NCBI GenBank assembly: GCA_001303705.1
Contig: LJUI01000112.1
Span: 1 to 8,279 of the forward strand
Reading direction: 5' to 3'
Length of the DNA: 8,279 nt
Origin: a candidate division TA06 bacterium SM23_40
GTDB lineage: Bacteria; LJUI01; SM1-40
Shown: positions 1,624-4,157 of the stretch, piece after piece
Layout of the letters: each line of letters opens with the position of its first letter
How positions within the stretch are numbered: position 1 is the stretch's first letter
Made by a program: the position numbers and the translations under genes
The notes under the pieces: model-generated
What the model was told of the DNA's origin: nothing
Database searches by the model: none
The model's input: only the letters and a program-made list of their open reading frames with translations

Positions 1624-1809
1624 TAACAAGGCCGGGATCACAACAACACCGCGGTCACGGCAACACCGCGGTCACGGCAACACCGCAATCTCAGCAACAC
1701 CGCAATCTCGGCAACACTGGGACCACGACAACACCGGGATCATAACAACACCGCGATCATGACAAGGCCGCGATCAGACAATACCGTGATCACGATAACC
1801 TCGAAGCCT
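1624..1809. repeat. Tandem array of 17-bp units (about 10 copies) upstream of the lipoprotein gene
   Basis: The consensus unit is close to CGGCAACACCGCGATCA. Units begin at 1624, 1641, 1658, 1675, 1692, 1709, 1726, 1743, 1760 and 1777 (the last is 16 bp), followed by a decayed copy at 1793-1809. Neighbouring units differ at a few positions, so it is an old, drifting array. The 17-bp period is not a multiple of three and no frame through it is convincing, so it is unlikely to be coding. It ends about 15 bases before the ribosome binding site of the gene at 1838, so it probably lies in that gene's promoter or leader. It is not a CRISPR array: there are no separate spacers. Confidence 0.85.
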
Positions 1810-1837: not shown

Positions 1838-3040
1838 ATGCTGAGGCAGACCACTCTGACCGTTCTCCTGGTCCTGGTCTTCGGCTGTGCCATGAAGGGC
1901 GAGCTGCCCCGGACGGAACCCGACCTGGGGGCCGAAGCGGCTCACTCCGCACTCGCCCAGAAGGCCGTGCTGGCAGACTACGTCAGGACCCACCATATGT
2001 CGCCCGAGGAATATGTGATAAGCAAGTTCGAGGAACACGACGTCGTCTGTATCGGGGAACAACATCGCATCAAGCACGATGTCGAACTGATACAGCGGAT
2101 CATCCCGGAGCTATATGAGAACGGCATCTACACGCTCGGGACCGAGTTTGGCCGGCGAGAGGATCAGCCTCGCATCGACAGCCTCCTCAATGCTCCCGCC
2201 TGGGATGAGGCGCTCGCCCGCCAGGTCACGTTCAATCAGTCCGTCACCTGGGGATTTCGGGAATACGTCGATGTGTACAGGGCCGCCTGGCAGCTCAACC
2301 ACGGGCTGCCCGAAGGCGCACGGAGATTCCGCATCCTGGGCCTGGGCGACTCGCTCGACTGGAGTGTCATTCAGAAGCCCGAGGACCGGAACGATCCGGC
2401 GATCATGAAGAAGGTGTGGCACGGGGAGGGCGAGCACCTCTGGGCGAAGGTCGTCCTCGACGAGGTGATTACCAAGGGAGAGAAAGCCCTCACGTACAGC
2501 GGCATTCACCACGCCTTCACGCAATACAGACAGCCCAACTGGAGCATTGAGAAGCAGAGACTGATACGATTCGAAGACAGGCGGATGGGCAACTTCCTGT
2601 ACAGAGAGATCGGGAAACGCGCCATCACCATCTACCTTCACGCTCCCTGGAACTCGGCCGAAGGATGGGAGGCACCGATGGTCCAGCCGGCCGATGGTAT
2701 CATCGAATCGGTCATGGCCGAGCTCGAACCGGAGTACATCCCGGTCGGCTTCGACACGAAGGGGACACCGTTCGGCAGATTGCCCGGCGAGACGAGCATG
2801 TACATGTATGGGTATGAGGATTTCACGCTCGAGACATTCTGCGACGGCTATATCTACCAGATGCCCATCTCGGAGTTCAGAGGAGTCACTCCGATCGAGG
2901 GATTCATCAATGAGGACAACATCGAATATGCGAGACTCCAGATGCCGAATCCGGCATATAGGCACGCCTCTATCGAGCAGTTCAATAACGCGATCGCCGC
3001 CGATGCCGACATACCGAGGCGATTCGCAAACGTGCGATAG
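1838..3040 (+). CDS. Putative lipoprotein of the TIKI/ChaN/EreA-like superfamily
   Basis: This 400-residue protein begins with a lipoprotein signal peptide: a Lys/Arg-poor start, a hydrophobic run (LTVLLVLVF) and a lipobox-like VFGC with the lipidated Cys at 17. It should be anchored in the envelope. Two GxxH motifs, GEQH (73-76, followed by H80) and GIHH (222-225), plus an acidic residue in GTEFGRRE (E103), match the pattern described for the TIKI/TraB/ChaN/EreA/GumN superfamily. Members of that group include metal-dependent proteases, erythromycin esterase and a haem-binding lipoprotein. Other candidate polar residues are D171 and H268. The substrate cannot be told from sequence, and no resistance role is claimed. 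The start is supported by GGGGAGGG (1824-1831), seven bases from GGAGG to ATG. Two large repeat tracts flank the gene (1624-1809 and 3058-3530), so it is probably transcribed alone. Confidence 0.75.
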   Translation: MLRQTTLTVLLVLVFGCAMKGELPRTEPDLGAEAAHSALAQKAVLADYVRTHHMSPEEYVISKFEEHDVVCIGEQHRIKHDVELIQRIIPELYENGIYTLGTEFGRREDQPRIDSLLNAPAWDEALARQVTFNQSVTWGFREYVDVYRAAWQLNHGLPEGARRFRILGLGDSLDWSVIQKPEDRNDPAIMKKVWHGEGEHLWAKVVLDEVITKGEKALTYSGIHHAFTQYRQPNWSIEKQRLIRFEDRRMGNFLYREIGKRAITIYLHAPWNSAEGWEAPMVQPADGIIESVMAELEPEYIPVGFDTKGTPFGRLPGETSMYMYGYEDFTLETFCDGYIYQMPISEFRGVTPIEGFINEDNIEYARLQMPNPAYRHASIEQFNNAIAADADIPRRFANVR

Positions 3041-3057
3041 TTCGACGACCACGTCCT

Positions 3058-3530
3058 GACGCGCCGGATCACCTCGACATACCCGATCAACTTGACGCGC
3101 CCGATCATCTAATGCAGCGGATCAACTCGACACCCACGATCAACTTGACGTGGCCGATCATCTGACATGCCGGATCGACTCGACATGCCAGATCAACTTG
3201 ACGTGGCCGATCATCTGACGCGCCGGATCAACTCGACATAACCGATCATCTGACACGCCGGATCAACTCGACATGCCAGATCATCTGACCTGCCGGATCA
3301 ACTTGACATAGCCGATCATCTGACACGCCGGATCACCGCGACGCGCCGGATCAACTGACGCGCCGGATCAACTGACGTGGCCGATCATCTGACGCATCGG
3401 ATCAACTCGACAGGCCGGATCAACTGACGCGCCGGATCGACTGACGTGGCGAATCATCCGACGCGTCGGAACAACTCGACATGCCGAATCATCTGACGTA
3501 TCGGATCAATTCGACATACGGGATCATCTG
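3058..3530. repeat. 27-unit tandem array of alternating 17- and 18-bp units rich in GATC
   Basis: All units but one start with GAC (the exception starts AAT) and contain a core near GCCGGATCA. Two forms occur. The 17-bp form ends GATCATCT or GATCAACT; the 18-bp form ends GATCAACTC or GATCAACTT. I count 13 units of 17 bp and 14 of 18 bp, filling 473 bases without gaps. Between about 3200 and 3330 the two forms alternate strictly, giving a 35-bp higher-order repeat. GATC occurs in 24 of 27 units, and units near the right end have decayed to GAATC or GAACA. Mixed 17/18 spacing breaks any reading frame, so it is not coding. It occupies nearly the whole gap between the genes at 1838 and 3584. There is no spacer structure, so it is not CRISPR. 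Confidence 0.93.
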
Positions 3531-3583
3531 GAGAGTTACACCACCACTCGATCGGCCCCTGCCGACGAAAGGGGGGATTGGGA

Positions 3584-4051
3584 GTGAGATATGAGAAAGA
3601 GAAGGAATACCTCGTCTCCTATTGCGGCTCGTACTGCCACACGTGCGACTGGCACACGGGAAGAATCCGCAAGATCTCCCGTGCCGCGCTCGACATGATG
3701 AAGCTGTACGGCGGCTTTCGGAAGCAGCTCGAAGGGAAGGCCGATCCCGAGGAGATTACCCGTGGGCTGGAGGTCCTGTCGGAGTCGGGCATCTGTTCAG
3801 GATGCAAGGCGGAGCTGGAAAAGGACCCCGAGACCGACCGGTGCGCCATCCGGCAGTGCTGTGCGGCGAAAGGTCTCCTCCTCTGCAGCGAGTGCCCCGA
3901 TTTCCCGTGCGAGATGCTGGCCACGAACCCGGGAGTAATCAGGTTCGGCTGCCTCGAGAACCTGAGGCAGATAGGGGAACGCGGCATCGAGAGATGGATC
4001 GATGAGCAATGGGAGAAGGAGACCGGCACCTCGCCCGGTCTCGGCATCTGA
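3584..4051 (+). CDS. Cysteine-rich DUF3795-type protein
   Basis: This is a 155-residue protein without a signal peptide or membrane segment, so it is probably cytoplasmic. Twelve cysteines are grouped as CGSYCHTC (14-21), CSGC (71-74), CAIRQCC (87-93) and CSECPDFPC (101-109), with a single C123. This spacing, with CGxYCxxC near the N-terminus and CSxCPDFPCE later, is typical of the DUF3795 family, thought to be metal-binding but of unknown function. The cysteines probably hold zinc or an iron-sulfur cluster; that is inference. The frame is also open from TTG at 3578, but the purine run AAAGGGGGGA (3568-3577) abuts that codon, whereas GTG at 3584 sits seven bases after GGGGGG. I chose the GTG. 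The stop codon lies inside a 13-bp direct repeat, and a hairpin covers the last coding bases. Confidence 0.82.
   Translation: MRYEKEKEYLVSYCGSYCHTCDWHTGRIRKISRAALDMMKLYGGFRKQLEGKADPEEITRGLEVLSESGICSGCKAELEKDPETDRCAIRQCCAAKGLLLCSECPDFPCEMLATNPGVIRFGCLENLRQIGERGIERWIDEQWEKETGTSPGLGI
4019..4042 (+). other. Perfect 8-bp-stem hairpin at the end of the DUF3795 gene
   Basis: GAGACCGG (4019-4026) and CCGGTCTC (4035-4042) pair fully around an 8-base loop, ending just before the stop codon at 4049. No T-run follows, so it is not a classical intrinsic terminator. It may stabilise the 3' end of the message or simply reflect coding sequence. Confidence 0.45.
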
Positions 4052-4070
4052 GCTGACCATCTGAGCTGAC
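4045..4070. repeat. 13-bp perfect direct repeat spanning a stop codon
   Basis: CATCTGAGCTGAC occurs at 4045-4057 and again directly after at 4058-4070. The first copy contains the TGA stop (4049-4051) of the DUF3795 gene. It looks like a recent slippage duplication. Confidence 0.85.
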
Positions 4071-4086
4071 AGAGAACCTCAGAGCC

Positions 4087-4157
4087 ATCCGAATCATCAG
4101 AGACACATTCAGAAGATCCAGAACACATCCGAAACACATCCGGAACATCTGGAAGAC
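4087..4157. repeat. Short degenerate array with 9- and 11-bp units upstream of the PEBP lipoprotein gene
   Basis: Seven consecutive units start with ATC or ATT: ATCCGAATC, ATCAGAGACAC, ATTCAGAAG, ATCCAGAACAC, ATCCGAAACAC, ATCCGGAAC and ATCTGGAAGAC. They are 9 or 11 bp long, averaging about 10 bp, close to one helical turn. The array ends 16 bases before the Shine-Dalgarno of the next gene. No promoter could be picked out in the 135-base gap. Confidence 0.65.

Follow-up and report, generated by a model that had tools for sequence, protein, structure and literature searches.

Layout of the locus and order of the repeat units

The window that we analyzed is the whole of an 8.3-kb contig (8,279 nucleotides) from the candidate division TA06 bacterium SM23_40, and it carries genes for an aldehyde dehydrogenase, a ChaN-like protein, a DUF3795 protein, a PBP, and a beta-helix protein. 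The gap between the ChaN-like and DUF3795 genes is filled by a tandem array of 473 bp (Table 1). This array lies outside coding sequence (coding fraction 0, between the two called genes), and no single reading frame runs through it because 17- and 18-bp units are mixed. For the DUF3795 gene, an alternative TTG start is possible upstream, at 3578. Two further arrays of the window, both absent from the initial annotation, are listed in the table; the one at 4070 to 4154 falls under the threshold used for the array class described below (TRF score 100).

The window also holds 25-bp repeats with CCGGACATTTCTATTTTGCTAA at 1292-1365, beside an inverted repeat at 1276-1304, and repeats of this kind are found again at L064:12264-12386. 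Sites of the CCGGACATTTCTATTTTGCTAA type (three or fewer mismatches) occur on four other contigs and look like insertion-sequence ends. There was no transposase gene in the gap that holds these repeats.

Table 1. Genes, arrays, and repeat blocks, with positions counted along the window
Feature	Position	Strand	Description
Second array	1626..1799	+	about 10 copies of an unrelated 17-bp unit, ACAACACCGCGATCACG; lies upstream of ChaN-like gene
ChaN-like protein gene	1838..3040	+	PF04187, 400 aa; upstream flank, 17 bp from array
Main tandem array	3056..3530	+	17/18-bp base unit, 27 units, four types
Unit type A			GGATCAACTCGACATGCC, 18 bp; main array
Unit type B			CGATCATCTGACRCGCC, 17 bp; main array
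Unit type C			CGATCAACTTGACGTGGC, 18 bp; main array
Unit type D			GGATCAACTGACGYGSC, 17 bp; main array
Three 53-bp trimers, A-C-B	3066..3224	+	units 1-9
Three 35-bp dimers, A-B	3225..3329	+	units 10-15
Two 69-bp tetramers, A-D-D-B	3330..3467	+	units 16-23
Terminal units	3468..3537	+	A-B dimer (units 24-25), A unit (26), decayed B-like unit (27)
DUF3795 protein gene	3584..4051	+	PF12675; downstream flank; start from codon scoring
Weak degenerate array	4070..4154	+	A/C-rich, period about 31; next gap; TRF score 84

In an alignment of 18 columns, the units of the main array sort into the four types. The 27 units, which a partial unit precedes, follow one another head to tail over positions 3066-3537 in the order (A-C-B) three times, (A-B) three times, (A-D-D-B) twice, A-B, a single A, and a last, decayed unit resembling B. 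The trimer, in the 5' third, is built of 18+18+17 bp, and the tetramer, in the 3' part, of 18+17+17+17 bp. TRF scored the array at 322-343 under strict settings and at 550 under looser ones. We found GATC in 24 of the 27 units, between 3067 and 3522, and the distance from one GATC to the next is 17 or 18 bp, the single exception being a 69-bp stretch with three units that lack it.

The unit alignment and TRF thus bear out the number of units, the number with GATC, and the spacing given in the initial annotation. The strict alternation of 17- and 18-bp forms that it described holds in the center (about units 9 to 17), but elsewhere the units are ordered as trimers (5') and tetramers (3'); because the blocks are nested as (A-C-B), (A-B), and (A-D-D-B), alternation is merely the central portion of the pattern. 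Its satellite-like 35-bp dimer is real, and the order extends further, to trimers and tetramers. Copies of the trimer are 81-89% identical to one another, those of the dimer 78-94%, and those of the tetramer 87%; for the three dimers at 3225..3329 taken by themselves, the range is 86-94%. Mean identity between adjacent units is 70%, against 78-94% between blocks of the same type. Same-type blocks are therefore more alike than adjacent units, as block duplication predicts. The array has the features of an intergenic minisatellite: head-to-tail repetition of a unit of more than 10 bp, a noncoding position, and a pattern of block duplication.

A unit confined to one locus and a genome-wide class of arrays

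We found no second copy of the main-array unit in the 2.88-Mb assembly, either by DNA search or by degenerate-pattern search. Exact matches to the core of the unit (see below) occur outside the array as nine scattered singletons in the genome. Viral contigs gave 25 isolated, single matches. Arrays built from other units are common. Sampling 1.07 Mb of the 2.88-Mb genome at a TRF score of at least 100, we counted 44 intergenic arrays in 834 kb (53 per Mb) and 9 in an independent 231 kb (39 per Mb); a fourth-order Markov shuffle of the 834 kb gave one array of any kind at this score. The base units are 14-25 bp long, and most are specific to their locus and unlike one another, while a few of the 53 arrays are clusters of a dispersed 26-mer rather than arrays of their own units. 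In 16 of the 29 arrays with a unit of 13-26 bp, the highest score fell at a multiple of the unit. So many unrelated arrays in one genome show that a genome-wide process is at work.

Both neighboring genes are known for 40 arrays. The flanking pair is co-directional for 31 of these, divergent for 7, and convergent for 2; among the background gaps (251, each 150 bp or longer) the corresponding counts are 201, 38, and 12. Since the orientation equals the background, it does not point to the class acting as promoters or terminators. Promoter and terminator scans found no site within the main array, and no Rfam family matched it.

The same pipeline gave 4 arrays per Mb in a GN15 genome and none in G083. 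G051 and G100 had 28-29 per Mb, but their arrays are few and mostly of other kinds (longer or near-identical units). These comparators are distant and the samples small (138-251 kb); the Zixibacteriota sample (G098) was left out. The literature that we searched, largely reviews on eukaryotes or pathogen typing, holds no description of this class of arrays in bacteria.

Array density is uneven within the genome: L029 (C11), L055 (C33), and the window (C68) are the densest contigs, with 3.6-3.8 arrays per 10 kb, and the longest contigs have 0.2-0.5 intergenic arrays per 10 kb. Foreign contamination as the origin of array-rich contigs was rejected, since composition shows no separation. The dispersed 26-mer, GGGACGTTGGTAGGTTCAGAAGGTTA, has 72 copies in the genome at two or fewer mismatches, frequently paired in direct or inverted orientation at distances of 31-74 bp (for instance L052:14998-15067, L055:5563-5631, L162:3151-3370, and L081:15415-15643). 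All 30 of the GGGACGTTGGTAGGTTCAGAAGGTTA copies in the sampled DNA (three or fewer mismatches) are intergenic, and the 26-mer looks like an element of the REP/MITE type.

Distant homologues of the ChaN-like protein (39-51% identity) were found in a Zixibacteriota MAG, in a GN15 MAG, and in one further bin; for the Zixibacteriota MAG, RpoB is 58% identical. No array lies beside the ChaN-like gene in the Zixibacteriota or the GN15 MAG, both distant, and the third homologue, whose contig ends at the gene, was left out of this check. Because of the distance of these relatives, absence of the array in them carries little weight. It had been proposed that a single copy in the genome, with no conservation in relatives, would mark the array as a neutral local expansion. 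This is largely what we observed, with one copy and no array at two readable ChaN loci, although the relatives are distant and from outside the phylum.

GATC content, core and spacer variation, and strand composition

The density of GATC in the main array is far above background, and the genome average is itself already 2.9 times expectation. Against a single-base expectation, coding DNA has an observed-to-expected ratio of 2.86 and ordinary gaps one of 1.85; the other arrays, at 2.72, lie at background. GATC is not a distinguishing mark of the arrays as a class. A search for Dam-type methylases in this genome, which is about 90% complete, found no match to the Dam family (TIGR00571), for which an E. 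coli control was positive; the single D12-like match is a 653-aa protein with an N6/N4 methylase domain and is not Dam. The enrichment of GATC in coding DNA exists despite this lack of a Dam family match.

These results bear on the functions suggested in the initial annotation. Its methylation-sensitive region is not supported, given the lack of a Dam family match and the 2.9-fold enrichment of GATC in coding DNA. An iteron or parS-like array would have direct repeats in its favor, with GATC in most of them, but the unit is confined to one locus, its core recurs elsewhere only as singletons, and the units of the other arrays are unrelated to it. The annotation had itself remarked that no Rep or Par gene is present, which we confirmed over the genes of the window, and neither a Rep gene nor an origin was found beside the array within the contig. 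Thus, we regard an iteron, parS-like, or Dam/SeqA-type array as very improbable. A DNA-structure element is not indicated either, as neither strand folds unusually compared with shuffled sequence (z of 0.69 for the + strand as RNA and 0.37 for the - strand as DNA).

The variation within the unit is uneven. The core, GATCAWCT(Y)GAC, is 12-13 bp long, and its per-site rate of change is about one-seventh that of the 4-bp spacer. Within unit types, there were 9 changes in 260 cells of a 10-column core and 25 in 104 cells of the 4-column spacer (Fisher p about 1e-8, a value that is too small because units recombine and share ancestry, for a contrast hypothesized post hoc from the alignment). Uniform neutral decay does not predict this contrast. 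The uneven variation makes a functional core possible, and one explanation is that a putative protein binds the core at many sites while a 5-bp linker drifts freely; such a platform could regulate the downstream DUF3795 gene or organize the chromosome. Overdispersion in the main array is 6.1, the highest among the 25 arrays measured (0.7-2.6 in the rest), so the class as a whole does not show this pattern, and 17 of the 20 events in spacer columns 14-16 are transitions that preserve a purine-pyrimidine-purine order. However, a spacing of 17 or 18 bp corresponds to about 1.6-1.7 helical turns and presents no fixed face of the helix, some of the spacer changes counted as independent may stem from recombination between unit types, and the scattered single cores elsewhere and the distant ChaN loci without an array fit poorly with a binding platform. 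We therefore consider such a platform unlikely. CpG hypermutability was rejected as an explanation for the spacer variability, as the CpG transition rate is not raised in other arrays.

We also compared sense-strand composition in 35 arrays between co-directional genes with that in 219 other gaps. T was 0.152 in the arrays versus 0.203 (p = 5e-8) and G was 0.380 versus 0.328 (p = 1e-4), in a set from which dispersed-repeat families were removed, with several base measures tested and replication strand uncontrolled. The T-poor, G-rich direction also holds against the arrays' own flanks (p = 0.009 and 0.016), and the excess of A over T is present in each of the two samples separately. This composition suggests some link to transcription and is at odds with an entirely neutral origin. 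A G-rich, T-poor sense strand might favor the birth or the survival of arrays. Slippage associated with R-loops could be one route; another could be that the transcribed RNA does no harm, or is even of use, as an unstructured spacer. However, the main array is low in T like the rest of the class but, on the sense strand, rich in C (0.328) rather than G (0.239), flanking genes are oriented as in the background, and G exceeds C on the sense strand in ordinary gaps too. Transcription-linked expansion or an RNA-level role is accordingly quite doubtful to us. A Rho-type bias of C over G on the sense strand was rejected; the class shows the opposite, and the main array alone is C-rich. A combination, in which transcription orients a class of spacer arrays and the core of the main array was selected as a platform for an undescribed protein, also seems to us a rather improbable account.

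Probable growth by block duplication and comparison with known systems

The reading that we favor, and hold to be probable, is that the main array is a locus-specific intergenic minisatellite that grew by repeated local block duplication. Local DNA expansion is most likely, rather than a switch built on GATC or a binding site of the plasmid type. A short stretch of the spacer would have been duplicated head to tail first, and two-, three-, and four-unit blocks (35, 53, and 69 bp) would then have been duplicated again as repeats slipped during replication or exchanged unequally, with point changes accumulating alongside. In many other spacers of the genome, the same process probably acted, each time from its own starting sequence; the unit of the main array would carry GATC because its founding sequence had GATC. 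The simplest history is that multi-unit blocks were duplicated time and again. The anatomy of the repeat, its confinement to one locus, the distribution of the class, and the background orientation of the genes are shown directly, and from them we infer both this mechanism and a lack of function. Slippage and unequal exchange are the two standard growth models for minisatellites (PMC3899988).

The array shares features with three known kinds of repeat and differs from each. Iteron arrays, at plasmid and secondary-chromosome origins, consist of direct repeats of about 20 bp, some with GATC. In contrast, the main array has no initiator gene in the window and no AT-rich unwinding region was noted, and it is one among many unrelated arrays. 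Bacterial minisatellites, or VNTRs, are defined by a repeat unit above 10 nt (PMC3899988). The main array is like them in its degenerate head-to-tail units of more than 10 bp, its restriction to one locus, and its position in a spacer. It differs in the high density of arrays within one genome, in that it is long and old (70% identity between neighbors), and in that its blocks are nested. The density of degenerate intergenic minisatellites in this genome is an order of magnitude above that in one distant comparator (GN15).

In eukaryotic satellite DNA, unit types are arranged in multi-unit blocks that are more alike than adjacent units. The blocks of the main array likewise resemble each other beyond adjacent units, but this array has just 27 units, lies in a bacterial spacer, and suggests no centromere-like role. 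Satellite-like growth of higher-order repeats is shown in a bacterial spacer, and this genome is suited to asking how bacterial minisatellites start and grow and whether transcription orients them.
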